The position numbers and the translations under genes were made by a program. Shown here in pieces: positions 4,626 through 63,060 of a stretch of DNA of 64,000 nucleotides (positions are counted from its first letter, which is position 1; every line of letters begins with the position of its first letter). This DNA comes from Atriophallophorus winterbourni. Its lineage: Eukaryota > Platyhelminthes > Trematoda > Plagiorchiida > Microphallidae. Below the pieces are notes generated by a model. That model had not been told where the DNA came from, ran no database searches, and saw only the letters and a list, made by a program, of their open reading frames with translations. The stretch lies in NCBI GenBank assembly GCA_013407085.1, contig JACCGJ010001929.1, forward strand, positions 206,842 to 270,841, given 5' to 3'.

Positions 4626-5040
4626 TTGTCACAGCCCGGGGTGGTGGTGGGGATAAGCTCCCGCTACATACAAAATGCTCCCATACGGCGTGCGTCTCAA
4701 ATAGCCTCTGACAACCGAAGCCCAACTCCTGGCCTGCTCGTGGCGGAACTGCTCCTACTGACAGGAGAAGGGGTGAAGGCGGGTGACTGGCGCTCCAAAA
4801 CCAGTCCGCTTCGGGTAGATGGAGCTCGTCAGCCTGGGAGGGCAGTCCATCTAGGGGATGGAAACCCTGACTCCAAACCTCCGCTTCCTGCGATTTACAC
4901 AATCACAATACTCCGCCGAGGACGGTCCCAAGCCCGTCTGCAAAAGGAGGAGGGTTAGACGCGGGGTCAGCAACCCCACTCTGTAAAAACCTCAAACCGC
5001 TACTGAAACCAAAGCAACATGTCATACCAAAGTAAGATCT
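4626..5040 (+). repeat. Probable 5' region of the RTE element (or a SINE-like unit joined to it)
   Basis: This GC-rich block precedes the RTE endonuclease. 4722-4880 is shared with the SINE-like element at 48688-49145 (common phrases include agatggagctcgt and agcctgggaggg). 4911-5010, beginning actccgcc-aggacgg, is shared with the head of the short derivative at 31981-32292. It is either the untranslated head of the RTE family or a separate short retroposon immediately upstream of it. Confidence 0.6.
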
Positions 5041-15991: not shown

Positions 15992-16702
15992 TTCCAGTCA
16001 GCTGATGAGCTGAGCTGTTCGGTCGATTGCGTGAAATTTGAATTCGTTGAAATCATTACACCTTGTGTTTGTTACACCATGTATCACTTTTACAATCAAC
16101 ATCAAATTTGGGATGCTGATGCATACATTAGCCATTTGTGCGCGTTAGAGCGCACTCTACTGGAAAAAGCAAAGATTTCTTTGCGAAGGCAGAGCCGCTC
16201 TTTGTCATCCGGCGTTGACCATGAACGGTTGAACCGAGAAAATCATCATTCGATAACCAGGAAATTGCTCGAAAACGAGAGAGAATTTATTTTAAATGAA
16301 CCCAAAAAAGTCCACGTGAATGAAGCTCACGGTGATCGAAAACAGAAGCTTGGTTATCAGCGGCGAGCAGGAAACGATGGCGTAAGCTCGCATGAAACTT
16401 ACAATGTTTTATCGCGTTCCCAAACGAAAGGTCACTCATCAAATGGAGTTGCAGGACGTAGAGCGAACAGTGCAGCGCGCCCACAAGTCGGAATCACTAC
16501 ACGGTACAGCTTGGCAAACGGAAATCAAAATAATGTTCAACGCACAAAGCAAGCAGCAGCTGCAGGGCGTCTGAACAAGTATTACACTCGAATGCGGCTC
16601 GGAAGGGTCCCACGCATTGACCTTGTACAACCCATGTCAAGTTGGGAACTACTTGACAGCCAGTCTCACACAAACGAACCGTGGAACTTATTAGAAACGT
16701 GA
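15920..16702 (+). CDS. Hypothetical basic protein, divergent from cyclase-like gene 1
   Basis: A 260-codon open frame (208 codons if the second plausible Met at 16079 is used) ends at 16702, with AATAAA at 16775-16780. The later start would avoid the 72-bp antisense overlap with the 5' end of cyclase-like gene 1. The product is rich in Arg, Lys, Gln, Asn and Ser. Its central part (YNQHQIWDADAY, LERTLLEKAKISLRRQ) could form a helix; the C-terminus (MRLGRVPRIDLVQPMSSW) has no motif I recognise. No signal peptide or TM segment is apparent. I do not know the family. A bidirectional promoter with the cyclase-like gene is possible. It could also be a chance frame, though its length makes that less likely. 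Confidence 0.45.
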   Translation: MRPILSMTESKYSFPKKPTNLTWHFQSADELSCSVDCVKFEFVEIITPCVCYTMYHFYNQHQIWDADAYISHLCALERTLLEKAKISLRRQSRSLSSGVDHERLNRENHHSITRKLLENEREFILNEPKKVHVNEAHGDRKQKLGYQRRAGNDGVSSHETYNVLSRSQTKGHSSNGVAGRRANSAARPQVGITTRYSLANGNQNNVQRTKQAAAAGRLNKYYTRMRLGRVPRIDLVQPMSSWELLDSQSHTNEPWNLLET

Positions 16703-28100: not shown

Positions 28101-28338
28101 ACAACATGGTGATTTTGATACCGAAGCGTAAGCGTCGTACCGCATGAGGTAATGCGAGTTTTTCCGAGTATCGTTGAACAGGAGTCGTACCTTGTGTCGT
28201 AAATTGGTACAGCAGCTTTAAAAATTGTATGATTTTCAAGGAGGCATTCATGTCGCTGTTGATTGTATCACGCAGTGAGCGAAGATAACGATCTGTAAGG
28301 GATTCTGTCTCCCAATCAACCTCTTCCCATTTGCTCAT
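25111..28338 (-). CDS. Intronless transmembrane adenylyl cyclase-like protein 2, probable pseudoenzyme
   Basis: 1075 residues in one exon with the same 6TM-C1-6TM-C2 plan as the protein at 12623-15991: TM segments about 71-237, C1 about 300-475, TM segments about 623-821, C2 about 885-1070. C1 keeps only an outline (ARIVNLP where AD-IVGF is usual; GNIYHAVSF where GD-YY-VSG is usual), so both metal-binding Asp are lost (Arg313, Asn356). C2 is clearer (LQTLDSGALYASGL, GKVLGGLAGDYNFRYNIWG), but the catalytic Asn is Asp1022, the Arg is Glu1026 and the purine-contact Lys is Gln941. No site for metal or phosphate chemistry remains. The frame is long, intact and intronless, so it is probably a maintained structural or regulatory paralogue. 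It lies 9.1 kb upstream of paralogue 1 on the same strand, consistent with tandem duplication. The start Met (MSKWEEVDWE) is the first in frame; a shorter start is possible. Confidence 0.86.
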   Translation of the reverse strand: MSKWEEVDWETESLTDRYLRSLRDTINSDMNASLKIIQFLKLLYQFTTQGTTPVQRYSEKLALPHAVRRLRFGIKITMLYSLFILSVTFTESENIAPFMLTFFLGNFLLLCSIYVCTRRINDIRSCHFISAFLLLYVGFLYGISATNNHQYRRTTYVTENVLIISLVFLLPCKLELIPIFLALDLLVFSVFTNLSRGELIPMEDFHSEQGQSIMVYIISVTHWLIVVINGMYWMFCIYIKQRIAYFYLADRVQSYHWSNYHNDLQKRIFFNAIPAQLVGQFTNLKRRSEIMSSLWSSGLVLNECRSASMSQARIVNLPECLHDKTLKEQAEIVQLIASHLDQCCQLADCEKVYYAGNIYHAVSFEDAEISASQCINFGLLCCHAVKRINRKFDISLKIQVATHSEPCHYAILNNNEPGLWVTSNAAATLNRLLHEGIDGRVCVSDYIYKLTHTQYRFAIQKNASERRWGAPSCYYVDPRSGSMDIRGVTAQLSDESPNEVIEYLNTLRTVLFVDTASDCNEDQLIFHQYNLTHPDLASETVQESEPVEGELTEPNIRRLILKAHQHLRVSIQHLINNIQAAPRHMRESYIILPVNYGMISFDWHARYPFKREQVSKYALDCEHVVFCFDVLCLSLHNLLLIYIAYFVLYSSDLLGTFALCFNILLVFFHIGLLLLALRTIVSSVAERTKQKSKVLSFVNEICFSSCYGETFVQIYTVFPLLYILVVYFGLLSSNITISDNLLFFLTVGDLLSFIHLSPTSSRYTLRFLGFFISLVIVNSLEGLTYRKLWLPSIDSIHQLGEFAENAMVLMITLLMAWFIVREHDFLYRCLFYQRKEAFEQKELTGENVRKTLNAIQTIIPLSVYSRVSKRVLKNESSNFKNRAWLEMNNVGTAVITVVNAYQNGLSGKSLLDRLHKLQSFLSTVNDLLSKETTFGEICKLQTLDSGALYASGLDSPHEGSGHLVSLVEFCFTALHLCAAYNQDQLADQEGFQLVLACNSGKVLGGLAGDYNFRYNIWGYPVDVMMEIKRMGVINQLVTTEEIRAALSMHYEFIQYGSVSSESSEPVVLYVCQKKG

Positions 28339-31090
28339 CCTAACAGTATTTTGTTAACTAATTCACATCGTTGGAGTATCCTTACCGTCGCGCAATCTAT
28401 TTTAAATAAACGATCACATGACCAGTTGAAAGTAATCGATAACTAGTCCATTACCGAAGTTTGGGCTAATTTAACTAAGAATGGGATATTCTAAAAGCTT
28501 CATTCGAAATTATTTGAAAGTTCAGCTTTACGCTACCGTTCAATACAAATAGAAACACGGTTCTCAATTACAAAATATCAACGAAATAAATGTTTCCACA
28601 ATTTTTAAATGACTACATTCTTTTGACAAAGATACCTTGAAGCAAAATGGATGAATTCATAGATTTATTCTTAAATGATATGCGGATATCAGAGCCATTC
28701 TCTACACGACCCACAAAATGTTCATTTGGTCAGATAGTAATAACATTATCTTAAAATTTTGTTAAAGATTATTATCGAACGCAAAACAAACAAACAAAAT
28801 TTGAGATTTGGTTAGTTCGGTGTAGACTGGGTGAGAATTATCGGCGAGAAAATTATTAATAATTCAATCACAAGAAGTGAGGTGTTGTTTCATATTAATT
28901 TCCGAGATGCTTCCGTGGGTTACAGAACTTGTGTGAAAAATAATTTTGATAAAACTTGTATTAATAGGAAGCCTTTTGAAAGCAAAGTGGGAAACAACTT
29001 CATTCGCGGCACAAACGGCTGATATTATTGTCTGTTGAACTATGATTACGCAGACACACAATAAACACGATATGTAAACGAACTCACGAATCGTCAATCT
29101 GTGTGCGTTCTGCATACAACGGAGGAAATCTGCGAGGAAATGTACTGTTTGAAGAATTCCGGGATATATATATACCATGGCTCCGAAAAAATATTTTGTT
29201 TCTTAATCGATTACGTAATCAAGCTTCTAAGCTTACAGACGGTTTTGTCATACGTTGAGCGCCCCAACTTATTGTGTCTGATAAATTTTACATAAAGTCC
29301 GTAATACTTTATCACACAACTTGGATAATATTTTTCCGTTTCGATATGCCAGCAAGTCCCTATGTTACGGTCGATGATGAATAAGCCAAGTTGGTTGCAC
29401 AAAAATCGTTTCAGGAATGTGAATGGTTTGATCCTAACCAATATGGCCGACAAGGGCCACCGATTGAAACCCGAGGATGCGTTCTCTGGGATTTAAACGG
29501 TTCCCCACCGCGTGTCACGGAGGCTTTGCCGGGGTATTTTTGAGGACTGCTGAGGCAACAGACATTTGAACTCAAACTATATTTTCATAAACTATTGGTT
29601 TTTGATCTATTACCATGGTCAACATCGACCGGACCAGTCTAATCTATATCACGTGATATTCCATTAAATGCTTGATATTAATCATATTCATTTTACTTAT
29701 ACACAATTATTTTTGTATCAATATTTTCAACCCGTGGCCAAAAAATATGAATCTTGAATATTGTATTTTGTTAGAAAAAAACCGCCACATAAGACCGAAG
29801 CAAATCGCGCAGAACCTGCAACAAGAGCATTAATATATATATCGATTGACCTCGACTGGACTTTCAGAGAAGTGCGTATCATTAGGCTTACGTAGAGTAC
29901 AGGCCAATGTGTCATTTGATCACGGTTAATCTTGCCCATCAACTCATTTAGCGTATAGACTAGTATGCCAATTTACAAGACGCATTCAGATTGGTTGAAA
30001 TCTCATAACCTGTGCTTGTCTATTCTCTTTGCCTTGGTCTGACGAATCTTGTGAGATTTAGCTTAGCATGCAAATGGGGTTTATCAACGTATATGTGGAA
30101 CTCGAAGTTAACGTAGAGTCAAAATAAAATTTCATGCCACAACAACCACGAAACCAGATGTGTTTCTGACGTGCCTTATGAATTTTACACACTACTTACT
30201 AGTAGAGTGGAAGTGGAGTATTCTACAAATATTCCAGGGTCTACATTGCAGCACTACGTCTATTTCGAACATTCTCCAGCAACTTAGAATGAACACCTGA
30301 AGCAAAATCTAGATGGGCCAACCACCACATCTACAACGCTAGACGCCCGAAAAGTGGATTCGTTAAAATGGATTTGATTGTTAAACCTTTGGAAAATTCA
30401 CACAATTTGAAAAGACAGCTGAGGACACATCGAAAGTGCTTGGAAAACGAATTAACTAAGGGGTAAATGAACGCTTGATTAATTTCTTCCACTTGATGGC
30501 CAAATGCTCCGAGTTATCCTTAGAGGATTTCGAGGCAACTTGCAGAAAACTCGTCGATGGCTTAGTTACCAGGAGGAAAAAAATCAAAGAAAGGTAGCAA
30601 TTTAAGTTTGGTAAACAGCGTTATTCCAAATGCAAGTCCTCCAAAAATAAAAGGTTTCCTAATAAATCTAAAAAATACATTTATCATACGGACCTCTTTC
30701 GCGGACCCGGATATGTTTTCTGTAATATAATCTCAATTCTGAATGCTGAGGACATGATACCTTGAGTCAAGGCGAAATTATGGAACATCTACGAGAACCT
30801 GATTAGTTTAATGCAAAAGTGAATAGTAGATACTCCTAAGAGAGAAAGTTAAAAAAATTGACAACATATCTGAAGCTTGTATAGTAGTTAGTGAAGCAGA
30901 TGAGAGCAAATCTCTGTCAATCCCCAACAATTAATACTAATAAGATAAAGTTTAGCTGCACCTTATGTATATTGCTAAAGCGTGCGGAATCCAAACAGGA
31001 GCTTATCCATGGGTTGTGGTAAACACTGTATTACCAACCCACTCGTTCAACAAACATCCATAATCTACCTTAGAATAATAAAATATTTGT
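28339..31090. other. AT-rich interval without recognisable gene
   Basis: Only short open frames occur (for example 28864-29178 minus and 29211-29453 minus), none with motifs I know. The 5' flank of cyclase-like gene 2 (28339-28450) must lie here, but I see no convincing TATA box. No repeat matching elsewhere in the window was noticed. Confidence 0.5.
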
Positions 31091-31980: not shown

Positions 31981-32292
31981 CATTTCATTCAGTCCTCTCC
32001 GGTCTGTCGCTGCTTCCGTTGCCGTCTGCACCGTGAATCCTTGTGAATGTAGTTCGCGTTCCAACGTTTTGCGCCAAGTTTCCTTGGGCCGTCCACTTTT
32101 TCGTTTACCTTGCGGATGCCAGTGCATGGCTACCTTCGTATGCGAACTGGGATCCATCCTGCAGACATGACCGAACCACGGATCTGTTGTCATCGTTTCC
32201 GTAGCAATGTAGGTTTTACGGGATAGGGTTGCTAGCCCTAAGCCCAACCCTCCTCCTTTCTCAGACGGGCTTGGGACCGTCCTTGGCGGAGT
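31981..32292 (-). mobile_element. Short non-autonomous RTE derivative (5' head joined to 3' end)
   Basis: 312 bp bounded by an exact 14-bp direct repeat. On the minus strand its first ~100 bp (actccgccaaggacggtcc onward) match 4911-5010 of the RTE element. The rest encodes an RTE C-terminal segment (WFGHVCRMDP, HWHPQGKRKSGRPKETW, DRRGLNE) and it ends gaatgaaatg. The endonuclease and almost all of the RT are missing. It could be a SINE-like element mobilised in trans by RTE proteins, or one internally deleted copy; the clean duplication shows it inserted as a unit. Confidence 0.8.
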
Positions 32293-32306
32293 TATCCTTT
32301 CACACT
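32293..32306. repeat. Target-site duplication, left side of short RTE derivative
   Basis: tatcctttcacact, identical to 31967-31980. Confidence 0.85.
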
Positions 32307-35764: not shown

Positions 35765-36020
35765 ATGGTTATGGGTTTAACCCCATTAAACATGTGCTTT
35801 GACACATGTGATTGAACAGGTTGGTCGTACCAGTCTTATCTAACAGTGGTATACAAGCGCTCCTTGTTTACCATTCCTCCACTGTTTCAAGCGCATGCGG
35901 ATCCTGATCTTACTGTCCATACCTGATGAGTGCAAATAGCACGAAACCGGTCGTGGGGTTTTTGTGACGGTAAAGCATGCAAATGAATATTTCATTGCAC
36001 CAAGATTTAACCAAATGGCC
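35765..36020 (+). repeat. Best-preserved unit of the family A ribozyme repeat
   Basis: About 250 bp. Order: atgggtttaac, cacatgtgattga, the small palindrome ttggtcgtacca, acagtggtatacaag, ttgtttaccattc-tccactg, tcctgatc-tactgtcc, hammerhead, gtgacgg-aa-gcatgcaaatga. Parts of this order recur at 34015-34160, 44690-44880, 50740-50850, 54130-54245, 55650-55790 and 55800-56180, on both strands. No protein is encoded. The edges start and end in similar gggttta phrases, so it may be one unit of a tandem or a Penelope-type terminal repeat. Confidence 0.75.
35917..35958 (+). ncRNA. Hammerhead ribozyme (family A), near-intact
   Basis: Stem I 5' strand CCAUAC (35917-35922); core CUGAUGA (35923-35929); stem II GUGC/GCAC (35930-35933 with 35939-35942) and loop AAAUA; GAAA (35943-35946); palindromic stem III ACCGGU; cleavage after C35952 (GUC); stem I 3' strand GUGGGG (35953-35958). 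Stem I pairs with one mismatch (A-G) and one G-U; sister copies with CCCUAC would pair at all six positions. The minimal self-complementary stem III implies that cleavage is most efficient as a dimer, as known for SINE and Penelope hammerheads. Confidence 0.85.
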
Positions 36021-39625: not shown

Positions 39626-40625
39626 NNNNNNNNNNNNNNNNNNNNNNNNNNNNNNNNNNNNNNNNNNNNNNNNNNNNNNNNNNNNNNNNNNNNNNNNNNN
39701 NNNNNNNNNNNNNNNNNNNNNNNNNNNNNNNNNNNNNNNNNNNNNNNNNNNNNNNNNNNNNNNNNNNNNNNNNNNNNNNNNNNNNNNNNNNNNNNNNNNN
39801 NNNNNNNNNNNNNNNNNNNNNNNNNNNNNNNNNNNNNNNNNNNNNNNNNNNNNNNNNNNNNNNNNNNNNNNNNNNNNNNNNNNNNNNNNNNNNNNNNNNN
39901 NNNNNNNNNNNNNNNNNNNNNNNNNNNNNNNNNNNNNNNNNNNNNNNNNNNNNNNNNNNNNNNNNNNNNNNNNNNNNNNNNNNNNNNNNNNNNNNNNNNN
40001 NNNNNNNNNNNNNNNNNNNNNNNNNNNNNNNNNNNNNNNNNNNNNNNNNNNNNNNNNNNNNNNNNNNNNNNNNNNNNNNNNNNNNNNNNNNNNNNNNNNN
40101 NNNNNNNNNNNNNNNNNNNNNNNNNNNNNNNNNNNNNNNNNNNNNNNNNNNNNNNNNNNNNNNNNNNNNNNNNNNNNNNNNNNNNNNNNNNNNNNNNNNN
40201 NNNNNNNNNNNNNNNNNNNNNNNNNNNNNNNNNNNNNNNNNNNNNNNNNNNNNNNNNNNNNNNNNNNNNNNNNNNNNNNNNNNNNNNNNNNNNNNNNNNN
40301 NNNNNNNNNNNNNNNNNNNNNNNNNNNNNNNNNNNNNNNNNNNNNNNNNNNNNNNNNNNNNNNNNNNNNNNNNNNNNNNNNNNNNNNNNNNNNNNNNNNN
40401 NNNNNNNNNNNNNNNNNNNNNNNNNNNNNNNNNNNNNNNNNNNNNNNNNNNNNNNNNNNNNNNNNNNNNNNNNNNNNNNNNNNNNNNNNNNNNNNNNNNN
40501 NNNNNNNNNNNNNNNNNNNNNNNNNNNNNNNNNNNNNNNNNNNNNNNNNNNNNNNNNNNNNNNNNNNNNNNNNNNNNNNNNNNNNNNNNNNNNNNNNNNN
40601 NNNNNNNNNNNNNNNNNNNNNNNNN
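39626..40625. other. Assembly gap of 1000 N
   Basis: Exactly 1000 Ns, a conventional placeholder length, flanked by a near-duplicate of the same CR1 segment. The true gap length and content are unknown; any reading frame drawn across it is meaningless. Confidence 0.98.
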
Positions 40626-44689: not shown

Positions 44690-44880
44690 CGAGCTAAACC
44701 GCATTCAGTGTTTTCACATGTAATTGAATAGGTTATTCGTGCCAGCTTTAGCTAAGAATGGCTTCAAACTTTAATATTCATCCACTGTTGTAAGGTATGC
44801 AGAACCTGATCGTTCTTTCCCTACCGAAGAGTGCAAACACCACGAATGTGGATTTTATCAAACCACAAATCAGCACTTTG
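44690..44880 (+). repeat. Decayed family A ribozyme repeat
   Basis: Contains cacatgtaattgaatagg, then ccagctttagctaa, ttcatccactgtt, cctgatcgtt, CCCTAC, CGAAGA, GTGCAAACACCAC, GAATGTGG. The order is that of 35765-36020. The first core strand reads CGAAGA and the second GAATG, so the ribozyme is dead. 44881-46700 has no recognised gene. Confidence 0.6.
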
Positions 44881-49620: not shown

Positions 49621-49921
49621 GTTAAGGGATGCTAATTACATTACTTGCACTGTATTCCCAAGAAACTTAACGTGATTTTTGCTCCGAGATATCAATGGGG
49701 CCGGCTAATCCATATGTGGAGACAGCCACTCAGAATGAAAAGCAAACAAGTAAGGATATACATGAATGACAACCGAAGTACAACCAAACATCAAACGTCT
49801 TAAATTCTATCTTTCCCAAAACTGATTGCTGAACTCACCCAATACGAGCTTACGGAACAGAGAATGAGTGAATAACGCGTCATTCCTAGTTATAACAATC
49901 AATACATATGAAAAAAATTAC

Positions 49922-50647
49922 CGTTGTCCAATCATCGAGTGGAGATTTGAACACCGGATCCGGTTGTGTTGGCCATTGATTGGTTGTCGGGAAGGAATTT
50001 CCGAATGCAGCAAACTCATTTGACGTCGCGAACGGATTGAGATTGTTCGTGGGTTTCGCTTGAGCAGGAAAAGGTGCAAAAGGGTTTGCCGATGAGATAG
50101 CATACGGCCCTGAGAAAGACTGAGTGGGGTGGGGCGATGGCACATGTAGGAACGGATTTGCAGAATTTGAAGCTGCTGGTGCGGTTCGTGTAGGATAAAA
50201 CGTATTGTGATAATCCCCCGAGGAAGGAAAAGTGGATGATGTGTGGTAAAACGGGGATACAGTGACGGGTGCCGTTGAATCAAAAAGATTGATAGCCGGT
50301 TTGGATGCAGGGTGGGTGACTCCATTTGAAGGTGTGGAGGAGGTCGTTTTGAAGATGTTGTCTAATTCTGCGAGTGCGGCATACTTATCGCTATTTGCCG
50401 TTTGAACGGGGAGTGATGTGTTCGGGGCAAGTGTGGGAGCGGTACTCGCGGGTTTCGGCTCAGGTGAAACAAAAGAGGTCTTCGCGGATGGCAACCCGTT
50501 TGGAACTTGGGAAAAGTCGGCAAAGAAGTCTCGTATAACGGATTGGTTGACTGAAGCAGGATTAGTGGTGGTGGATGAAAAGGGATCAATAACATTTTTC
50601 GTCTGATCCTCAATGAATCCTGTACCGGACGAAGATGCATTTGATGT
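49922..50647 (-). CDS. AGFG1: AGFG exon 5 (NPF/DPF-rich)
   Basis: 726 bp after a pyrimidine-rich acceptor (TTCATTCTTCCACCAG). Low-complexity Ser/Thr/Pro/Asn/Phe sequence with one DPF, one NLF and three NPF motifs plus DKYAALAELDNIF, the AGFG hallmark. Donor ACG-GTAATT; without splicing the frame would read 12 more codons to a stop at 49886. Confidence 0.88.
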
Positions 50648-53600
50648 CTGGTGGAAGAATGAAAATACAGATTGACCCACTATTCATACGGATGGAGCAC
50701 AAATAGTTTCGTCGGTAATTATGAAAAATGCGAGGTGCGATTACATAGAAACATGAGTGTTTCAAGGCGCACTGAACCTGATCTTACTGTCGCCACCTGA
50801 TGATGGCAAACAGAAAGAAAGTGGTGTGTAAGTAATGGGAATATGAGCACCACAATATATAACTGCAATGTGTTCATGAAACAAGAATACAAATTAAGCG
50901 GGCACCTAGCTACTCAGCTATACGAGAACGCGCCTAGCAATAGAACAGGTTTATTTGATACAAGGTAGTGTGCACGCTTTTACTGAAAACGTTCCGCAGT
51001 GATGTATGAGGCAAACAATCTTAAACCTCAAATCAGGAAAAATGCACACAGCCATAAACTGCACATGCGTTAAAATACCTCAGGTTTCCCAGGAAGTGAG
51101 AATCCAGCATGCGCAACTCACTAACGGTGGCGAGAGACAATATACAGTTCTAGAGAAAGTAAAGTTATCCGGAAGCGTTCGAATCCAAGAAATATCGACG
51201 CTTTCCAATTAATGATTTCTTCGACTGACTTTCTAAGAGTGATCTCTCGTGCGAATAAAACAATCTCAGATTGCTTAAACGTTTGTTACATCCGTCAACA
51301 AGTTGAACCAACGAGCTGTAGAGAGTAAAAGATCTCACCGAGATAGCTGGAGCAGTAAAACGTGATTCCACGTCCTAAAAACGTATTCACACAGCACAGA
51401 CGGATTTTGTGTCACACACTGATTTACCTGGTCTGGACACAATAAGCATCGCTAAACTAGTCGTGCGTTCGACACCTGCGAGTTTAAACATCATTCTGAT
51501 TGACGTGCACCCGCATATGCACCAAGCCCGTATGTTTATCAAATCGAGTGGACCTGTTCGCCAAATTTTAATCGATCGCAACACTCACCATGTTCAATGC
51601 ATCCAAGTGAACGATGTTCATGGGGATTATTTTTGCTGGAAGAGATAGAATGCGCGTGTTGGGCGTTTCGCTCCATACAGACTTGAGCTGTTCATATCTA
51701 GACACCGGTCGGCAAAATGTCACAGAGAAGCAATTCCATATAACTCGTACTGATATGCAATCGTGCAGTGCTTTTGTGCGGTACAGCTGCAGTCAGCGGT
51801 AATGAGCTGCATGCGAAAACACTTAGGAGTCTCACTGTCATTTTTATTTTTCATCTAGACCCGGTCAATCTGAGGGTAGCTTAGCTCACGTGCAGTCTAA
51901 GAATGTGCGACACTGTCTGGATCATGTTTGTGATTTTATATATATACATATACGCGCTCTACTCCGCGCTACGCAAACGAAAGACAAGCATCCGCCCTGC
52001 GGACCCTGGCGCTAGTGAAACCAACATTTTGATTGGCGATTCTGGAATTCTTGAACATATCCAGCAGCACTTTCGCTTGCTGTATTTCTAGCCCACAAAA
52101 GGATGTAACGTGGCATAATTTCGGAGCATTGTTCTTTAATATGGCACACAGTTTCGATGCATCACTCATTTCGCGGCATTTATTCTTGGCTCGTAGACTC
52201 AGGAGCTAAAGCGTACCAACACATACCACTGTAGGAATCCTGATTTCAACCTCATTAGATCAGTGTTCAATCTTCGTGATGTAAGGACAGAAAATCCCGC
52301 TTCAAATGATTGGTGTTCGATAGATCGTCGCTTTACTGCCGCTTCCCGTTTAGAACTATGTCCATTGGTGAAAACGCTCGAACCAAAGTTGCTACGATTC
52401 CGTGTGATTCCAGTGTGCGGGGATTGGAGCACACGACTCGTTGTTAACATATTCGCTAGATGACGTACATAGCTTGGTTGCATGTTCGGCTCTGGGATCA
52501 TGCGAATAGGTTCCTCGGAAAACGCATCGGTCACCATGGTTGTTAACTTTCATCATTTTGTTCATTTTTATGCTCGACCGTGTTCTAAGTTAGACATAGT
52601 TAAGTTGAACATACCTCATGGACCAGATACTTTCATGTAGGTGATACGCATTACACATGCAATCAATCTATAGCCATTTGTTATGCTAATAACAAAGCTA
52701 ATAAATCTAGAATGGTACATTGGTGAAAATCACTTTATTAAACCCTAGATATCATGCGCGATTTATCAACGGGTTTTAATCAGCATGGCACGGCATGTCT
52801 TTGGAGTGGTGTTAGCTGGGATGCATAGGGAACTCTGGAAAACCCACGAATGACATCATCAGCTGACCGTCATAGTGCTTTCAATGTGCCACATTTTATT
52901 CGTTTGTTAAACTCACCTTTTCGGAACCATTTAACACAGGCTGATTTTGCTTCGGGCTTGCAGGGACGGGTGGTTTGAGCGATACAGTTGGAGAAGTTTG
53001 TTTCGGAGGAAGGATCAATCCAACAGCTGTATTCGCCGGCGTTTGACGCGGGTGTTTGGCAGATTGATCGAGCTGGTCGATCAACAGCTGGTTTTCCCGG
53101 ATCGCGTCATTTTCCACTGCGGCACTTGGCTCCACATACCTTTACCGGATCGGATGAGATGTGAAAATCGTGAAATGAGATTGAATTTTCCTAGTGCTTG
53201 GTAATGTTGAATAACGAAATATCAGGGACGTGGAGAAAAGACAGAAATAACCAAAGGTTAATGCGGATCCATGAGTTAATGTAACAGATTATGAGAAAAC
53301 CCAAAGCGGAAAAATTAATAAAGGTGTACAATCAAAGAGAGACAGAACAAGCAATACCAGAAATCATTGTCCAATAGGCGATAGACTATCATTAACCATT
53401 TGGAAAAGACGAACAACTGTTTGCGAGAGACCATTGTCAATGGCAAATATTTTGAGTGACTGCATGTAAAATGGGAAAATTCAACAGAAGATCCTGGGTA
53501 TAGAAAAGACGACGGAGAAACTGAAAATTGATCGGCAGACATTGATATTTGACGGGCGAAACGGGAAGGGCTATCGCTCATATGCCATTTATTTGGCTAA

Positions 53601-56600
53601 TGAAAATTCTGGGCAACACTTGCGAATAATGCATTCCGCTGTGAAAGCTTGGGAGATATTTGAGATAAATTGCTGGTACAGCCCAGTCAATCTGCCATGT
53701 ATGATAGTGCGGTCAGGATAAGAGATGCGATGGTTGCCAATATTGGTTTTTTAGCATGTCAGACAATTGTGATGGTCTGGGGTTCGAGTCCCACCCGAGG
53801 CGGAGGATATGCACTGCTGATGAGCTCAAATAAGAGCGAAACTCGAGTCCAGTGCTTCTATTATGGACCGCCGTGATCAACTTTGTGAATAGTTCGATGG
53901 GCTTGGCACGGATGAGTAGTCGCAAATATAAACAACAAATTCTCCAAACTTCGCTTAATGTCAGACAACCATTAAAGACAGATGAGGGTGTACTAAAGAT
54001 AACTAACTACTCAACATGGCCAGTTTTAAAATTTTGCCAGATGAGCCACAGCGCTTGTGACAACAACAATACGATAAACTAAAGACCAAGTTTTTAACAA
54101 TTTAATTTCTCACATTTCTCAGTGGTATTCATTCCCTTGAATGAATTGAAAATACATGCATTTGCGTGTATTTCCATTACACACACCACGAATGGTTTCG
54201 TGCTGTTTGCATTCATCGGGTAGGGACAGTACGATCAGGATACGCACTTTAAACTTAGGAGTCGAAACGTCACACACAAGCACCAGTTTTTTCTCGGAAT
54301 CACACTTCATGGTTATGCAAAGCGTTGAGGATAAGATTTCTGAGATGTGCATCCACAGTGGACAACAATAGCTCATGGAACGCTTCGGGAAGCGGAATAT
54401 TGAAGCAGCCCTGTTGTCCACATCGTGCTACAATGATGATCATCGGTAATGTGCGGCGAGGAGCAATCATCACAGTTGTTGGAATTCGTGTCTCGGCGAC
54501 CCGTCGGTGTCTCACCTTCCGTGGGAAGTCGACCGCTCACAAGTTTGTGATATGGTACAACATCGATCATATGAATGCACATAAAAATCAGACAGAGGCC
54601 ATACATAGCGCGTAACTAGTAATGAAACTCGAAAGATGTAGTCGTACGATAACGCAGCGATAAGTAAACAAGCGGCATATACCGATCAAATGGAGATAAT
54701 TCACACACACACACGATTGTGAAAGCGAACCAAACGAAGAGAACCAACACCATGAGTGGTGCATTTTTGTTGGAGAATGGCTTAGTGTTTCGAGACGAGG
54801 ATGCATCAACAGTTTAATGGCCAATTGTCACGTTCTATTTGTACCGTTCATGAAATGTCATTTCATCAAGGCAAAGGGTGAATAAAATGAAACACCAATC
54901 GATAAAAAAGTGGACGCACACTGGATGGTCGAAAATACTGATTGATCGAAACGATAGAATTCGACTAGGAGTGATTGGGCAAAACGCAACAGGCACTTTG
55001 CCGAAAGCCTAAGATGAATTTAAGGAAGATGGAATGACATATGGAAAAATTGATTACTAGCAACAGAGCATTTCCTAATGACAGTTTAAACCAAAACGTT
55101 TTCAAATTTTCCCAACAAGCAGGTCGTAGCACTAATTTCAAACGATAAGGTTGAACTTTGAAGCTACCGATTGAGAGGACTGGCAAAGCCATCGCTGATC
55201 AATTTCACAATAATCTGATAAACGGAGCCATTCGGGGGAAAGGCTTAGCCTAAACGACACGGGCGTAGTTGCGCCCGGTTTTAATACACAGAACGGGACC
55301 GGCTTTTTTAATGTTCACACTCATTATGTAGGGCCACAACGATCACGCTCCATGTGCCTCGGCAGAATGGTGATAACTTTGCATTTCAAGCCACTCTTGG
55401 TTAAGGCTGCGTGCGTAACCAACACATTGAAGCTGACTTAGTTCTACCTGGTTCAAACAGCCGCATAATAAATGCTGAATATTTGTTTGATTCGTCATAC
55501 CTCAACGTGAACTCTCTCTAGTCTGGTATAATTCGATGAAAAAGGAATGTGCATTTAGACAGCGTTAAGCAAATGTTTTCATACAACACCAAATATGATT
55601 GAACTGGAATTTCACGATCAAACCATTGTTCAATTATCGAGGAAGTCAAAAATCCTCATTTGCACATATTTTCGTCACACACACACACCACGACCGGTTT
55701 CGTGCTGTTTGCGCTCACCACATCGGCGTGCCTCGAAACAGTGGATGAATGGTAAGCCACTGGCGGATAATGTTGGCACGGCTAACATGCCAAGCACATT
55801 TAAATGGGTTTACCCATGAGCTTGAACGAAAAATCTGCATTTGAATGCATTTCCATCACATTCACACACAACCCTACCGATTTCGTGCTATTTGCACGAA
55901 TGAACAAACGTGCCAACCTTATCCAACACTGGCGTAAAGCTCATACTTTGTTTACCCATTCTCGACAGATCAAGGCATTCGGATCATGATCCTACTGTTA
56001 TTACCCGATGAATGCAAACAGCACGATCGACCGGTCGTGGGGTGTGACGGAAACGCATGCAAGCGAGGATTTTTGTCCAAACCCGTGGGTTTAACTCATC
56101 TACATGTACGTGGGCACGTGATTAAATAGGTTGGTCGTACCAAACTTAACCAACAGTGGTATACAAGTTCAAACTTTGTTTAGTAAAACACATTCCATTC
56201 ACACCTTTGTAAATGGGTGTTATTAGTCCCAGTTTCCAGTCTTTTGGCAACACACCAGCTTGGAACAAATTACTAAACATTCAAGATAGATGTTCAGAGA
56301 GCTGCGCATGGCAGGTTTTGAGCAGCTTCGGAGTTATCTCGTTTGGTCCAGGAGATTTCTTTACGTTTAATTTTGGTAAGTGCTGCGCCACCACTACCGG
56401 AGTAATCAATATTTTACCCAAGGTCGGTCGGTCAAATCGAATGATTGGTTCATGATCAGGATCAATGGATTTCGGTGCAAAAACTCGGGCATAAAAGTCT
56501 GCTAACAGGTCAGCGGTCTGTTTAATAGATTCACTGAAGCCGAACGAAGTTTTTAGAGCAAAGACTCCGGGTTTAATATTTGTTCTATCGTTTACGAGTC

Positions 56601-59600
56601 TATATAAGAGCTCCGGATTCTGGTGCATCTGAGAAATCAACGGCGATTAAAAAGCTTGTTCATCATCTCGAAAAAACCTGATAACTTTGATTCGCAGTCG
56701 TGTTAATTGTGCCCAAGAATCAGCTGTGTTGGTAGCCTTGTGAAACTCCAATACCATTGCTCTTTGTTTCATCCACTTTTTAGTCCTGCTTCATAGTAAA
56801 AATTTATTACGTTGAGACGTTTTCTTCAAAACAAACATCGAATGTTCCTCCCATATATATTTCAGGTGCTGTAAGAGAGAGCGCCAATGAATACCTGGAA
56901 CGGAGTAATCCAGTTGCGCGAAACTAGTGCTTTGTAACTCAGCACACATACCACGGTAGTTCACCCTTCTGACGCATTTCGTTCCGTCACTGTTGCGCCT
57001 AGCTCTACAAACGTACTCGAGTTCTAGGACAACGTGATCGATTCGTCCAATTAGCGGTTTATAAACGATATTCTCTACAGCTGTAGGATCTGATGTAAGT
57101 ATTAAGTACAAGGTAGACGGTTGGTCTGATCCCCTCATACGAGTAAATCCAAAAACGTGGTTATAAAGGGGTGCGTAATCCAAGACGGCTCGAAGTTCAT
57201 ATTCGCGAAGGTTACGTACCTTTAGCATGGAAAGCGGGTGTGATAACACCAATTTACAAGGGTGGCTGTCGTTCAGACGCAGCAAATTACAGACCTGTAA
57301 CGCTGCTACCCTGTATTTTAAAGATCATGGAGCGCATCATTAGTGAATGTATTGTGGGTCACCTTAAGCAAGAGGTCTTTTCTCAGCAGCACAACACGTG
57401 TTTTGCCGGACCAGATCTTGTCAGTCGAATATACTGATCACACTAAACGACTGGACTATGTCGCTCGACCAAGGCTACACGGTTCACGCTTGTTATATTG
57501 ATATATCAAGAGCTTTTGAAAAGGTCAATCACAGCCTGCTTCTGCGAAAACTAGCGCAAATTCAACAAACGGATAGTACTGATCAATCTACGTCAAGTGT
57601 CACAGTTCAATTGGAACCTCATGCGCCACTCCAAAAAAAACGTGAGCATTCCGGCTCTGACAGAGTCGGACCCCTAATAACCTCTCATGATATGAGCACT
57701 ACAAACTTTAATGATTGTTTATATACAAACACACAAAGTTTCTCTAGCAAATTATTGAACCAAACAGCTTACACCCCGTCATTACTCATAAAAAACACAA
57801 TTAAGTGCATCTATACGAACGCAAACAGCCTGATCAATAAGCTGCACGAACTCTCCGAGATTTGTGATGAAACGAACCCAGACATAGTTGCCATAACAGA
57901 AACTTGGTTCACTACCTCGTTTTCTGATCTAGAACTCTCTTTACCAAGCATGTCTTTATTTCGACGTGACCGTTTGAGTGATGGCGGAGGAGCAGCACTC
58001 TACTGCAAACAATCATTTATTTGCAGAGTTATGAATGACCAAAATCTGGATGTTCTATAACTCTTACTTCTGGTGACCAGTGCGTTATTGGAGTGATTTA
58101 CCGTTCTCCAACCGCGAACCTCGACCTGAACAATAAACTGATTACTGCTTTGCACTATGTAACAACGCGATACAACACTCAAATTTTGATAATGGGAGAC
58201 TTCAACCTTCCCCAGCTATATAACCGTGATGATCATCCACCAGAGACACTTGAACACGAACTTCGAGCAGTCGTGGATTGCACACCCATCTATAACCACG
58301 TTAACGATTTACTCATATGAGGGGAGCTGACAGGCCGTCTACCTTGGATTTGATACTTACATCTGATCCTACCGCTGTAGAAACTATCATTTATAAACCG
58401 CCGATCGGACGAAGCGATCACGTTGTCCTAGAATTCGAGTACGTTTGTAGCGCTAGGCGCAATAGTGACGGGACAAAATGCGTCAGAATGGTGAACTACC
58501 GTGCTCTGTGTGCCGAGTTACAAAGCACTAGTTTCGCACAACTGGATTACTCCGATCCGGATTGTCATCGGCGATCTTTCTTACAGCACCTCAAATCTAT
58601 ATTGGAGGAACATTCAATGTTTGCTTTGAAGAAAACGTCTCAACGACATAAATTTTTACTACGAAGCAGGACTAAAAAGTGGATGAAACAAAGGGCAGTA
58701 GCGTGGGAGTTTCACAAGGCTACCAACACAGCTGATTCTTGGGCACAATTTACACGACTGAGAAACAAGGTTATCAGCTTAATTCGAGATGATAAACAAG
58801 CGTTCCAATCGCAATTGATTACTCAGATGCACCAGAATCCGAAGCTCTTGTATAGACTTGTAAATGATAGAACAAATATTAAACCAGGAGTCTTTGCCCT
58901 GAAAACTTCGTCCGGCTTCACAGAATCCATAAATCAGACCGCTGACCTGTTAGCAGACTTTTATGCCGGAGTTTTTGCGCCGAAATTCATGGAGCCTGAT
59001 CAGGAACCAATCGTTCGACTTGACCGACCGACCTTGAGTGAAGTATTGATTACTCCGATGGTGGTAGCGCAGTACTTACGAAAATTAAACGTAAAGAAAT
59101 CTCCAGGACCAGACGAAATAACTCCAAAGCTGCTCAAAACCTGCCATGCGCAGCTATCTGAACCTCTATCTTGCATTTACAAAGGTGGTTGCCTTTCTGA
59201 TGTTAAAAATTACAGGCCGGTGACCTTGCTGTCTTCGGTATCAAAAGTTTTTGAGCGAATAATAACCGCAGAAATCGTGCGACATCTGGAAACGAATCAA
59301 CTTTTGGCAGTTGCCCAACATGGATTTCGCAGAAATCGCTCTTGTCTAATAAATATGCTGACAAGCTCAGACGATTGGACGAGGATTGTAGATACGGGGG
59401 GCTGTATTCATGCGTGCTACCTGGACATTTCTAAAGCGTTCGACAGAGTTGATCACAATTTATTCTTGAACAAGCTAAAGAAACACGGTGTTGTTGGAAG
59501 ACTATATGAATTGATAAGTGATTACCTCAGCAACAGACACACCAGAGTTCGTGTGGACGGCCTATTATCGAAGAAAATCGATGTCACTAGCGGTGTTCCT

Positions 59601-62459
59601 CAAGGCTCGCTGCTTGGACCAATACTGTTCCTAGTCTATATGAACGATATACCAATAGGAAATGACAGTAAGATGGTATTGTTTGCTGACGATATAAAGT
59701 ATGGCGGCGAATCAGCAATGCTGATGATTGTATTTTGCTCTACAACGATTTGAATGCTTTGTACAACTGGTCATCCGAAAATAAACTGTCATTGAATATG
59801 CAAAAGTCGAAGATGATTCAGATTGGCCGTGACCTTGGCTTTTCCTATCAATACAAGCTCGGCGACATAAACCTGGAATACACCGAAGAAGAAAAGGACC
59901 TGGGTGTCTGGATTTGCGGTAGTTTGAAAAATGGTCTACAATGCGAAGCCGTTTACAAAAACGCGTCTCGGCTGCTCGGTATCTTACGGCGGATATTTGG
60001 ACGTTTTTCCCCGGGGTGTTTTCCTCGCATGATGAATACATATATACACCCGGTTCTAGATTATGCCGCACAAGCCTGGACACCATGGCTCAAAAAAGAC
60101 ATTTTATTTCTGGATCGCATATATCAGAGAGCTCTAAGCTTGTTAACGGATTCGAAAAGACGCCATTCGCCGAGCGACTCAGACGACTGGAGATGAGGAC
60201 ACTTGCACAAAGGAGAATGCGAGGTGATCTCATCCTCGCATACAAAATACCCACTGCTGTTTCCCACCCCCTGGATATATTATTCCACCTTCGAACTTCC
60301 AGCAACAGCCGTGGCCATGGTTGCAAGTTGGAAATACCACATTCCAAACGGAAGTGCCCCAGGCATTTTTATTCGGTGCGTGTGTGCTGTGTTTGGAATT
60401 CCCTACCTTCCGATTTGGTAAGCTCAAACATTTTATCTATATTCGAAACGAAACTTGACGATTATATGAGAGCTCATCCACATTTTGTCCCCAACTATTA
60501 ATAAACTATTTTCGTCCAATTGATTATGATTTTATTTATACACATTTGTACCTATAATTCGACTCTATGATGATTGTGAAGTTAATTGCTTTTTCAACCA
60601 TAAATCTTGAATATTGAACAAAAAATCACACGAATGAAAAGCGTCTGCATGAACACGAAGGTGCGACCGCTGCAGCATCACGTGAGCGAAAATCAGCTCG
60701 CACCATCAATTTCGAGATCACCTGATTCTACTGTGAGAACACATTTAAGCTAAGACTTTTTAAGTGAATGACGCCTCGACTGCAGTGTCGGCCCATGAGA
60801 TATGTTAATGAAAAAGTGGAATATTTTCTAATAAGACCGACATTATAAGCAGATCGGTTTTCGACAGATGAAGCTTTACTCTACAGATGATTGTATGCTT
60901 AGCATTTGTTTCCATCCTCTTTCTTATCGTGACTTTATACTGTTTGCTCTCAAATAGTTGAATGTGGTAAAACCATTGAATTTTGAACCAATGGTAAGTG
61001 GAAACAAAGGTCAAACAAAGGACAATTTTAACTATCATAAAGTAGTGTTCGACGAACCGAGCACTGAATGAATAGAGGTATAAAGTGTCGTTATTGATTC
61101 GAAATTAGCTATGCGTTAAGATTTGCATTTTTAAAGCGCCAAATTACTTTGAAAACCATCGAAAGGTGTGTGATCAGACGATAATTAACCGAATCAGATT
61201 CCCAGTTCCGTGGAAATACATTTTTACCGGTAACGGCTATGGTTGACTGATAAAAATGCAAGTGCTCCATGTTGGTTGCACCATGCACAGTGCCACAGGG
61301 TTGTAGACGAACAGAAAAACCCTTGGATCCGAGATATAAAGAATAAAAAAATAAATGCGTTTTTTCGGTTACAGCCTTTTGCTTGTGACAAATAAGTTAG
61401 TATGGTAAACAAGTTTATACTAGGCCTCAAATTATCATTCATAGTGGATTTCGGATAGACTGAGCACCCGGTATAGTGAACAACTTGCGGTTGTAGACTG
61501 CTTCGGGCAGTGGCGCAACAGTAGGGCTTACCGGAATGACGAAAGTAGTACGTCATTACCTGAACAATGCATGGCACTGGAACGATCACCGCTGATGTTG
61601 ACGGGTAGGCTATGAGAAGCCGCACTCCGAAAAATATCGTGGTCTCTTCATTGAAACAATCTCAACGTTATCTAGCGTTGTTGGGACGCAAGCAAAATGT
61701 CACGTTCCTCACGCTTTCCTTGTTTAGTATTTAGTATGCATGTGATGCATGCTTCGGGTGCAGCGTTTTCATATCGAAATAAGAAAGGAATGTACAGGAT
61801 AATATTCAAATCACAGCACAGAACTGACATTCGAACGGATGAAAAACTTCAATATCAAACTATCATGTGGGTGTAAAGACTTGTATTTCAGGAAATCTGT
61901 CAAACGCGTAAAACCGTTGATACTACTACACCATTGGCAAATTATTAGGATTATGAAGCGCTATTATAACACAACAGAAATAAAAATTTGCTGAGATTTG
62001 CTATGATGATGCTGTAATTGAAAAAAGAGATCCAATAATGCTTACCAACGCTTTAACTCATACTTCATACGTAGATACTCATCACGTGCAGAATCTGAGA
62101 AACGGTTGTCCTCGGAGAGTTGCTGCGAGTCTTTAGCGAGGAAGATACGCCGGCAAGCCTGTGAACAATGATACACCAAAATAAGTTTACCTTATTACCC
62201 CGTCGTCGAAGAAGTTCCATCTCGCTAGAGGTGAAGTTTGACATTGTAATGGATTTTATTCGATGATTGTATTTACGCCTGTAATCCAAATGAAATACCG
62301 ACAGAAAAAAACTTCCGAGGCTCCGCCGCACGCGGTGCATACAAACGAGCCGATGGTCGTATCAACATAAATTGGCCCTCTTTGATGGCATTCAAAACAA
62401 AACCGGTTTTCTTCGTGAGCAACCATTAGTTTTAAAATTTTCAGATATCGATCCTGCAT
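49922..62459 (-). CDS. AGFG1: AGFG/HRB-type ArfGAP with NPF motifs (five exons, 3' end not found)
   Basis: Exons (minus): 62459-62313, 62278-62191, 62158-62046, 53139-52917, 50647-49922; introns 34, 32, 8906 and 2269 bp. Exons 1-3 give an ArfGAP zinc finger (CFECHQRGPIYVD, GSFVCTACGG, HRIKSITM, then KYELKRW); exon 4 continues W-YVEPSAAVEN, as AGFG proteins continue KRWYVPPEQ. Exon 5 has the AGFG-typical SDKYAALAELDNIF and Phe-rich NPF motifs (NPFLHV, NPFAPF, NPFATS), which bind EH-domain endocytic proteins. AGFG proteins act in clathrin-mediated trafficking and nucleocytoplasmic RNA export. The CxxC-x16-CxxC finger spacing holds. Splice sites are GT-AG and phases agree from exon 2 to exon 5, but the exon 1-2 join does not keep frame (2 nt short or 1 nt long). 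Exon 5 ends in phase with a donor, so at least one more exon lies at or below 49921. Confidence 0.88.
50740..50850 (+). ncRNA. Family A ribozyme repeat in AGFG intron 4, cleavage site lost
   Basis: Has tgtttcaaggcgcac, cctgatcttactgtc, GCCAC (stem I), an intact CTGATGA (50797-50803), a poor stem II, GAAA, then GTGGTGTG (stem I). The 6 nt CCGGTC found in other copies between GAAA and GTGG are missing, removing stem III and the cleavage nucleotide. The rest of intron 4 (50851-52916) has short unassigned frames only. Confidence 0.6.
52917..53139 (-). CDS. AGFG1: AGFG exon 4
   Basis: 223 bp, acceptor GGTAAAG, donor AAG-GTGAGT. Completes Trp from exon 3, then YVEPSAAVEN, a short helical part (ENQLLIDQLDQ) and a Pro/Ser/Thr-rich segment (SPTVSLKPPVPASPK). 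Confidence 0.85.
53715..53925 (+). mobile_element. tRNA-related SINE carrying a hammerhead ribozyme
   Basis: A B-box-like GGTTCGAGTCCCACC (53781-53795) with a possible A-box region upstream (53732-53750) is followed by cggaggatat and an intact hammerhead (53811-53855), then about 70 bp to agttcgatgggcttggcac. This order (pol III promoter, then hammerhead) is that of the schistosome Sm-alpha SINE-like repeats. It lies in AGFG intron 3, on the strand opposite to the gene. Ends are approximate. Confidence 0.75.
53811..53855 (+). ncRNA. Hammerhead ribozyme (family C), fully intact core
   Basis: Stem I GCACUG (53811-53816) pairs perfectly with CAGUGC (53850-53855). Core CUGAUGA (53817-53823); stem II GCUC/GAGC (53824-53827 with 53834-53837), loop AAAUAA; GAAA (53838-53841); palindromic CUCGAG with A53841-U53848; cleavage predicted after C53849. 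Every conserved core base is present. The self-complementary stem III suggests dimer-assisted cleavage, as in other SINE hammerheads. Confidence 0.92.
54130..54245 (-). ncRNA. Family A ribozyme repeat, minus orientation
   Basis: Minus strand: CCTGATCGTACTG, TCCCTAC, CCGATGA, ATGC-AAACA-GCAC (stem II), GAAACCATTCGTGGTGTG. One core change (U to C, giving CCGAUGA) and a disturbed stem III; stem I CCCUAC/GUGGUG pairs at most positions. Probably weak or inactive. Confidence 0.65.
55650..55790 (-). ncRNA. Family A ribozyme repeat, first core strand deleted
   Basis: Minus strand: upstream unit (ttaccattcatccactgttt, cgaggcacgc), then GATGTGGTGA in place of CTACCTGATGA, followed by GCGCAAACAGCAC, an intact GAAACCGGTC and GTGGTGTG. 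The second half of the ribozyme is perfect, the first is damaged. Confidence 0.6.
55800..56180. repeat. Two family A ribozyme repeats head to head
   Basis: 55805-55920 is in minus orientation (gggtttacccatgagcttga, gcatttccatcaca, then minus-strand GTGC-AAATA-GCAC and GAAATCGGTAGGG). 55950-56180 is in plus orientation (ttgtttacccattc, CCGATGA at 56005-56011, AAACA loop, ACCGGTCGTGGGG, gtgacggaaacgcatgcaa, then ttggtcgtacca and acagtggtatacaag). The plus copy has GATCGACCGG where GAAACCGG is expected. Neither core is intact. Confidence 0.65.
56200..57180 (-). mobile_element. Inverted 5' part of an older CR1 insertion
   Basis: Minus strand: YELRAVLDYAPLYNHVFGFT, IGRIDHVVLELEYVCRARRN, NVKKSPGPNEITPKLL, then to ITPIYK near 56205. 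Nearly every residue can be aligned with the plus-strand copy at 58250-59190, so the two form a ~950-bp inverted repeat. At 57180 it abuts a sense segment of the same element type. Confidence 0.88.
57190..57565 (+). mobile_element. Sense RT segment of the same older CR1 insertion
   Basis: Encodes REGYVPLAWKAGVITPIYKG, NYRPVTLLPCILKIMERII, DWTMSLDQGYTVHACYIDIS and RAFEKVNHSLLL, that is the first RT blocks directly following the part carried inverted at 56200-57180. It is cut at about 57565 by the start of a younger CR1. Confidence 0.85.
57566..60620 (+). mobile_element. Near-complete CR1-like retrotransposon in AGFG intron 3
   Basis: Endonuclease: KCIYTNANSLINKLHEL, AITETWF, then MGDFNLPQL and GRSDHVVLEFEY. 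RT: SPGPDEITPKLLK, HGFRRNRSCL, LDISKAFDRVDH, TSGVPQGSLLGP, VLFADDIK (59690). C-terminus: EKDLGVWICGS, QAWTPWLKKDI, KLEIPHSKRKCPRHF, VRVCCVWNSLPSDL, stop at 60501. 3' UTR ends in ataaatcttgaatattgaac. Frames change near 58060, 58300, 59700-59750 and 60130, so it is dead. About 30 residues are missing in frame near 59172 (LSEPLS joins directly to CIYKGG). Antisense to AGFG. Confidence 0.9.
60621..62045. other. Distal AGFG intron 3, no recognisable feature
   Basis: Short frames only; no repeat seen elsewhere in the window was noticed. Confidence 0.5.
62046..62158 (-). CDS. AGFG1: AGFG exon 3
   Basis: 113 bp between a 32-bp intron (GTAAAC to TTCACAG) and donor TG-GTAAGC. Encodes ACRRIFLAKD to YLRMKYELKRW, the end of the ArfGAP domain. 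Confidence 0.88.
62191..62278 (-). CDS. AGFG1: AGFG exon 2
   Basis: 88 bp; encodes RKYNHRIKSITMSNFTSSEM and ELLRRRGNK, matching the HRVKSISM-TFT-QEIEFLQ-GNE stretch of ArfGAP domains. Acceptor TTACAG, donor AAG-GTAAAC. Confidence 0.85.
62313..62459 (-). CDS. AGFG1: AGFG exon 1 (zinc-finger first half)
   Basis: Begins at ATG (62459-62457); 49 codons. Contains CFEC and CTAC, the four Cys ligands of the ArfGAP finger. The 3' limit assumes a GTTTTT donor giving a 34-bp intron; this join is out of frame with exon 2, so either a base is wrong in the assembly or the splice site is unusual. Confidence 0.75.
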
Positions 62460-63060
62460 CCCGACACCGTTTCGATCAACACCCTAATACAAATTTGAGG
62501 TGCCCTATCGAGCAAAAAGGAAAATAATAATAATAGTCAGTATAATCTCATGAAGGCGTTAGTACTGAAAAGAATATATCGGAAACAAAAGGTCAAAGTG
62601 CTAGCTGAAACAATCCGAGAATTATTTAAAGCAAAACAAAAACACGATTCCCGAGTTAGGCAAAGTGGTGGGCTTCGGGCCAAACTGATATCCGGACACT
62701 CGAAGAGTCGAGCGAATTTGCACGACAGTTGCACGCATAAACTACATCTAGTTTGACTGTCATAGCTTGAATCGATGTTACTACTTTTTATAAATCAGTG
62801 ATGCATTAAGTCTCAATGTTCAGCACACAGATAATGGTGAAAGCTTTGTGCGAGTAAGTGCAAAGCAATTCGTTGAGGCACAAAAAGTGGCAGTGTGCAA
62901 CTTAACTTCCGATCAACGATGATCAGGCGTGGAGAGATCGACTAGCCCGTCATAAGCGCCAAATGGACTAGATGCATTGAGGGTTGTCGCTACGTCTGAT
63001 ACATTTACATAGATTCGGATCAAGCATTCTTTCGATCGAGATCCGCATTAAAATTCTCTG
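62460..63060. other. 5' flank of AGFG
   Basis: Should contain the AGFG 5' UTR and promoter. No TATA box or other strong signal is apparent. A 68-codon plus-strand frame (62550-62756) has no support. Confidence 0.4.

Follow-up and report, generated by a model that had tools for sequence, protein, structure and literature searches.

The analysis of the window (the whole 64-kb stretch of fluke DNA examined here) reveals an intact type I hammerhead ribozyme within a 191-bp insert that is flanked on both sides by a perfect 11-bp target-site duplication. The insert at 53767-53957 is very probably a 5'-truncated copy of a SINE or non-LTR retrozyme, the full unit of which measures 427 bp and has A-box-like and B-box-like motifs and the ribozyme, and it is probably one of thousands of such copies in the genome. 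The features of the insert and of the gene around it are collected in Table 1.

Table 1. Positions of the ribozyme, of the insert that carries it and of the surrounding AGFG gene pieces in the window
Feature	Position	Strand	Evidence
5' target-site duplication ATGTCAGACAA	53756..53766		sequence; recovered by script at the same locus (L029)
5'-truncated family A element, unit ~353-543	53767..53957	+	alignment to the L057 unit
B-box-like motif GGTTCGAGTCC	53781..53791	+	sequence, perfect here
Outer stem I extension, 5' arm GGCGG	53799..53803	+	sequence, fold
Type I hammerhead ribozyme	53811..53855	+	RF00163 37.4 bits; pair changes between families
Stem I GCACTG / CAGTGC	53811-53816 / 53850-53855	+	sequence
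CTGATGA core	53817-53823	+	sequence
Stem II GCTC / GAGC, loop AAATAA	53824-53827 / 53834-53837	+	sequence
GAAA core	53838-53841	+	sequence
Stem III palindrome ACTCGAGT	53841-53848	+	sequence
Cleavage-site C	53849	+	sequence; NUH site and conserved core both present
Predicted cleavage site GUC/C	53849..53850	+	sequence and hammerhead rule
Outer stem I extension, 3' arm CCGCC	53868..53872	+	sequence, fold
Tail with A/C-rich stretch, 3' end CGCTTA, putative reverse-transcription start	53901..53957	+	3' ends of inserts
3' target-site duplication ATGTCAGACAA	53958..53968		sequence; script
Open frame with AGFG C-terminal piece (match 49940-50665)	49886..50683	-	tblastn E 1.7e-12 (flattered, see text)
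AGFG ArfGAP exon pieces	62045..62442	-	tblastn pieces; PDB 2olm match

Ribozyme core, score and fold

A scan of the entire window against 4227 Rfam families returned a single match at gathering level, RF00163 at exactly 53811-53855(+), with a score above the cutoff of 34 and E 8.3e-6. The preliminary description had placed an intact hammerhead at these positions from the letters alone, and the covariance search agrees with it to the base, as does direct inspection of the core (CUGAUGA, GAAA and the cleavage site) and of the 6-bp stem I and 4-bp stem II that it had listed. At a looser threshold RF02275 (Hammerhead_HH9) also covers 53806-53859, where its 39.1 bits fall short of the cutoff of 52. 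Taken together, the sequence, the covariance-model score and the copies described below confirm the ribozyme as genuine, and its RNA is predicted to cleave itself at GUC/C; we take the cut position, 53849/53850, from the established hammerhead rule.

Stem I is lengthened by GGCGG and CCGCC beyond an internal loop, the letters of which (GGATAYGCA / GTGCTTC) are common to family A, to which the insert belongs, and to the units of a second family, D; a contact between this stem and loop II would be the tertiary contact of a type I hammerhead. The pattern CTGATGAGN{6,14}CGAAAC occurs twice in the window and was absent from each of 100 shuffles. The folding energy of the ribozyme region is weak (z -1.52; 13 of 200 shuffles equally good), and the minimum-energy fold, at -22.0 kcal/mol versus -16.0 kcal/mol for strict hammerhead pairing, retains stems I and II and the outer extension with the core bases paired. 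Stem III had been described as the palindrome CUCGAG; the palindrome is there, but because it has no loop the monomer can hold only about two pairs at this place, and the stem is hardly able to form there. The same zero-loop palindrome is also present in the Rfam consensus.

Copies and families in the genome

The search for related copies covered 537.3 Mb of genome in 15840 contigs. The core pattern CTGATGAN{8,20}GAAA gave 36653 matches versus 3089 for the reversed pattern. When the first 100 of the 36653 places were sorted by eye, 6 were assigned to family A, 27 were B-like, 30 were C-like and 7 belonged to family D, with 6 further places that look like reverse-transcriptase coding sequence, as judged from FADD codons, and 24 in no class; since the matches mix several classes, 36653 is not a count of working ribozymes. 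Six per cent of the total amounts to about 2200, which is of the same magnitude as the 2580 unscored first-look candidates that a 261-base query around the finding retrieved; 40 of these were scored, with at least 42 matches.

The family A unit is 427 bp long and sometimes arranged head to tail, and its copies are star-like around a near-consensus sequence. Aligned to unit positions 349-544 of L057, a long copy, the interval 53763-53958 is 95.9% identical, and the closest other genome copies among those scored reach 98% (L030, L031 and L032). These three begin and end alike on three contigs, which are perhaps duplicated or allelic.

Hammerheads fall into at least three families in this genome, A, B and D. 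At the sensitivity of blastn, what the units of A and D have in common is limited to the ribozyme, including the internal loop of stem I. Family D (L016, L017, L018, L019 and L028) carries a strong hammerhead, scored by HH9 at 45.2 bits twice in L016, where the spacing is 308 bp. Family B cores are separated by 174 bp in L023 and by 232 bp in L022, and the window itself holds a second hammerhead of this family at 35917-35958(+), with an exact core and 26.3 bits, below the cutoff, along with diverged relatives at 55909-56072, 44697-44846, 54156-54261(-), 55623-55755(-) and 50758-50825. The commonest group by eye, class C (30 of the first 100 core-pattern places; L024, L026 and L005), resembles family B, with C and A where the closing pair of stem II should be G-C and with GUA at the would-be cleavage triplet in all three loci; Rfam reported nothing for these loci at E 0.1, and class C is probably a very numerous dead ribozyme.

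Conservation and compensatory change

Of the 40 aligned unit segments (L029-L068), 32 retain every catalytic position tested. In copies chosen for their similarity to an intact-core query, and with relatives counted as independent, 11 substitutions were counted in 560 cells at the 14 catalytic positions versus 202 in 4840 outside the ribozyme region (p 0.008), the outside figure being 258/5200 when segment ends are kept. The difference weakens without CpG sites (9/480 catalytic versus 156/4160 outside, p 0.036), and random draws of 14 outside positions had as few changes in 28 of 2000 trials. The low rate at catalytic positions hints at constraint in the source elements.

Compensatory change was examined in 14 hand-picked rows (13 distinct) with intact cores from families A, B and D, in an alignment where one stem II column is misplaced in the B rows and turns four cells of that pair into gaps. 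In this set pairing holds in 94.4% of cells, changes on both sides affect 27 cells versus 9.0 in shuffles, and the covariation score is 0.465 versus 0.141, each value being reached by none of 500 shuffles; the best slid control came to 50.8% pairing and scored no higher than 0.132. By other measures the set does not stand out, as 7 pairs changed on both sides were reached by 111 of 500 shuffles and 10 further pair types by 83 of 500, and stem III received no covariation support across the three families. Because the rows are hand-picked and come from three families, the independent changes behind these values are few, and compensatory change between families supports stems I and II by some measures only. 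The expectation that stem changes would be compensated across copies thus holds between families A, B and D, where many are, but not within family A, where uncompensated changes occur; by eye, those in single family A copies are mostly one-sided, as expected for dead-on-arrival copies.

These results bear on the reading of 53811-53855 as a chance resemblance without a ribozyme. The folding energy, unremarkable by itself, would suit such a reading, against which stand the Rfam score, the shuffles devoid of the pattern, the genome copies, the excess of core-pattern matches over the reversed pattern and the covariation between families, and we consider chance extremely improbable.

Insertion anatomy of family A

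The family A sample comprised L009-L014 (6 loci from the core-pattern list), L029-L058 (30 loci retrieved with the 261-base query, including the finding itself) and L059-L068 (10 further regions around places matched by that query); removal of repeats of the same sequence left 40 inserts, of which 36 do not run off the end of a contig. Target-site duplications of at least 9 bp flank 15 of the 36 inserts, versus 15 of 1260 mismatched pairs in which the 5' flank of one insert was set against the 3' flank of another, and the remaining 21 carry no exact duplication of this length. The 3' ends fall at two close places, both inside an A/C-rich stretch within the unit: unit 533-553 in 33 of 40 inserts and unit 516-521 in 5 (L010, L042, L053, L058 and L063), with 2 elsewhere (L041 and L055). 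The family A tail reads CAAATATAAACAACAAATTCTCCAAACTTCGCTTAA. The 5' ends are scattered across the unit, reflecting varied 5' truncation, and 5 of 40 inserts have 5' inversions (L009, L012, L035, L044 and L056). Two groupings of 5' ends can be seen, one at unit 66-75 (L011, L051, L057 and L068) and one that falls some 30 bp ahead of the A-box-like motif, at unit 288-291 (L033, L034 and, for its direct piece, L035).

In 11 of 36 inserts a direct piece exceeds 440 bp, and 4 of these (L042, L057, L060 and L061) also have a duplication of at least 9 bp, so that several units were inserted together, more than one per event. Since units join seamlessly, the 3' ends lie inside the repeating unit, which suggests that copying began internally on multi-unit or circular RNA. 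Concerning a circular versus a linear template, variants found in at most 2 copies are shared by 0 of 8 same-insert unit pairs (mean of other pairs 0.04), and of variants found in at most 3 copies, 1 or 2 are shared by 3 of 8 pairs (mean of other pairs 0.14). The narrow 3' ends, 5' truncation, duplications and 5' inversions together point to a multi-unit RNA that spreads through target-primed retroposition.

Two of the inverted 5' pieces reach, at their outermost positions, close to the predicted cut end at unit 9: unit 10 in L044 (1 nt away) and unit 12 in L035 (3 nt away); the outermost position of L009 is unit 124. Outermost 5' positions at unit 9-12 number 2 of 36, with a binomial P of 0.045 for a bin picked after seeing the data, and the two ends are a lead, not a result, as a trace of cleavage.

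The insert as a SINE

The duplications, narrow 3' ends and 5' truncation of family A are hallmarks of SINEs, and its tandem 427-bp units with a type I hammerhead lie within the 150-450 bp that defines units of non-LTR retrozymes. The preliminary description had noted a B-box-like motif just upstream of the ribozyme, and GGTTCGAGTCC, which resembles the pol III B-box consensus, is indeed found there. Longer family A copies also carry the A-box-like GGTAGCCCAAG at unit 320. As the insert begins at about unit 353, it has lost this motif, and a complete internal promoter is therefore absent from this copy.

No tRNA was found by ARAGORN in 24 loci, 22 of them of family A, and a search of the long copy L057 gave no RF00005 match up to E 10. 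Relaxed ARAGORN at a 75% threshold called 5 genes in 16 heads versus about 14 in 160 shuffles, and at 95% it called none in the 16 heads. The earlier label of a tRNA-related SINE accordingly survives as a short dispersed retroelement; its tRNA relation stands on the A and B boxes, as no tool recognised a head.

The host gene and other features of the window

The insert sits between the ArfGAP pieces and the C-terminal piece of AGFG. The ArfGAP pieces were found on the minus strand at 62298-62442, 62188-62265 and 62045-62170, and an AGFG-type ArfGAP exon can be made out at 62298-62399(-), extending upstream to about 62442, with a translation that matches PDB 2olm (nucleoporin-like protein RIP) at E 3.1e-13. 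The tblastn E value of the C-terminal piece against AGFG1 is flattered, since the low-complexity filter and composition correction were off. One minus-strand frame of 53002-62598 gave no Pfam domain. The same intron contains LINE remains (RVT_1, 9.3e-24; Exo_endo_phos, 0.0036, below the curated cutoff).

The intron location proposed earlier is thus upheld; the AGFG pieces are all on the minus strand. With the hammerhead on the plus strand, AGFG pre-mRNA would carry its complement only and could not be cut. Co-option of the ribozyme for control of AGFG would find encouragement in its position within the intron, against which the insert is antisense to the gene, truncated, flanked by a perfect duplication and one of many copies, and we regard co-option as almost certainly wrong. 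The insert is most likely a passive passenger in the AGFG intron, antisense to the gene.

Elsewhere in the window, two twister-like type-P1 motifs, 78% alike over 110 bp, were scored below the cutoff of 67.2 at 4905-4958(+) (33.7 bits) and 32244-32298(-) (45 bits). Downstream of the former comes LINE coding sequence (ATWNVRTMYETGKA by eye; RVT_1 at 8294-9226), and the available text of PMC7761336 mentions RTE elements with truncated twisters at their 5' end. A guanylate/adenylate cyclase domain is present in two long frames, 12623-15997(-) of 1124 aa and 25111-28353(-) of 1080 aa. The former gave 14 protein matches, the best six of which are digenean, headed by Dicrocoelium dendriticum (47% identity), in keeping with the earlier attribution of the element to a fluke. 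A 1000-base run of N occupies 39626-40625.

How family A may move

The DNA itself shows the ribozyme and the duplication and, in the family, narrow 3' ends, 5' truncation, head-to-tail inserts and 5' inversions. A route by which such copies may arise would begin with RNA spanning two or more units, which the hammerhead would cut at GUC/C. RNA that is uncut, partly cut or re-joined would then be copied by the reverse transcriptase of another element, which would start roughly 110 nt downstream of the cleavage site, at the internal A/C-rich place, and insert the copy via target priming. That the family A copies show multi-unit, perhaps circular, RNA reverse-transcribed from this internal place, with some templates ending at the ribozyme cut, is a tentative reading that we hold to be rather doubtful.

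Family A may also be a conventional SINE whose 3' tail is recognised by the LINE that moves it, with the hammerhead as a passenger and the head-to-tail units as secondary, which we consider a real possibility somewhat short of probable. The A- and B-box-like motifs agree with this account, as do the LINE remains within the same intron and the narrow 3' ends, 5' truncation, 9-13 bp duplications and 5' inversions, which are marks of LINE machinery. It sits less well with the seamless units and the 3' ends inside the repeating unit, which point to a multi-unit or circular template, and with the tail, which is common to none of the LINEs of the window at blastn sensitivity, 53601-54000 having matched only itself there. 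Alternatively, family A may be a retrozyme moved by a Penelope-like element, the enzyme of which starts at the internal A/C-rich place and both cuts and extends the two DNA strands, which would also give the inversions; we consider this just as possible as the LINE account. In the available portion of PMC11167929 such an enzyme starts internally in an AC-rich stem loop and extends both strands, and the anatomy of the family A copies, with two 3' end positions in an A/C-rich stretch, is close to what is reported there in vitro. Passages of PMC7229834 name these elements as candidate movers of retrozymes. On the other side, Pfam found no GIY-YIG domain in 19 frames of the window (one entered twice), and the accessible text of PMC11167929 has the hammerhead as unnecessary for insertion in vitro.

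Relation to known systems

Hammerhead retroelements of this kind are already known; the insertion anatomy in the copies described here is unusually readable. The available text of PMC2770079 puts the hammerhead candidates found by blastn at about 38,500 for S. mansoni and about 5,000 for S. japonicum, and parts of PMC8490949 report functional evidence for hammerheads in S. mansoni repeats. By description, family A is like Sm-alpha and Sj-alpha in being a short, SINE-like element of high copy number with a type I hammerhead. It differs in that Sm-alpha resembles tRNA-Gln-like genes of S. mansoni, according to the same portion of PMC2770079, whereas the family A head is unrecognised as a tRNA, and in its host, a digenean with Dicrocoelium, Opisthorchis and Paragonimus as nearest named relatives on the basis of one protein. 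A survey of the titles and abstract openings listed, with most subscription papers outside its scope, found no such element described in a non-schistosome fluke.

Non-LTR retrozymes are described in PMC7229834, the consulted sections of which state that analogous repeats exist in platyhelminths. With the metazoan non-LTR retrozymes of that text, family A shares the type I hammerhead, tandem units of a few hundred bp and target-site duplications longer than 4 bp. It differs from them in that 25 of 36 inserts have no direct piece longer than 440 bp and in the narrow internal 3' ends seen in its copies, and it is known here from DNA alone. Penelope-like elements, as far as the text of PMC11167929 goes, likewise have a hammerhead, partial tandem copies and an internal AC-rich start of reverse transcription, and their enzyme leaves a genomic 'tail'; unlike them, the 427-bp unit is too short to encode its own reverse transcriptase with GIY-YIG.

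Hammerheads in animal repeats are well known. Many copies with clean duplications in one fluke genome let DNA address how such elements move: where reverse transcription starts, what form the template takes and whether ends fall at the cut. If some templates did end at the ribozyme cut, the ends of L044 and L035 would preserve a fossil record of RNA cutting itself in the living fluke.
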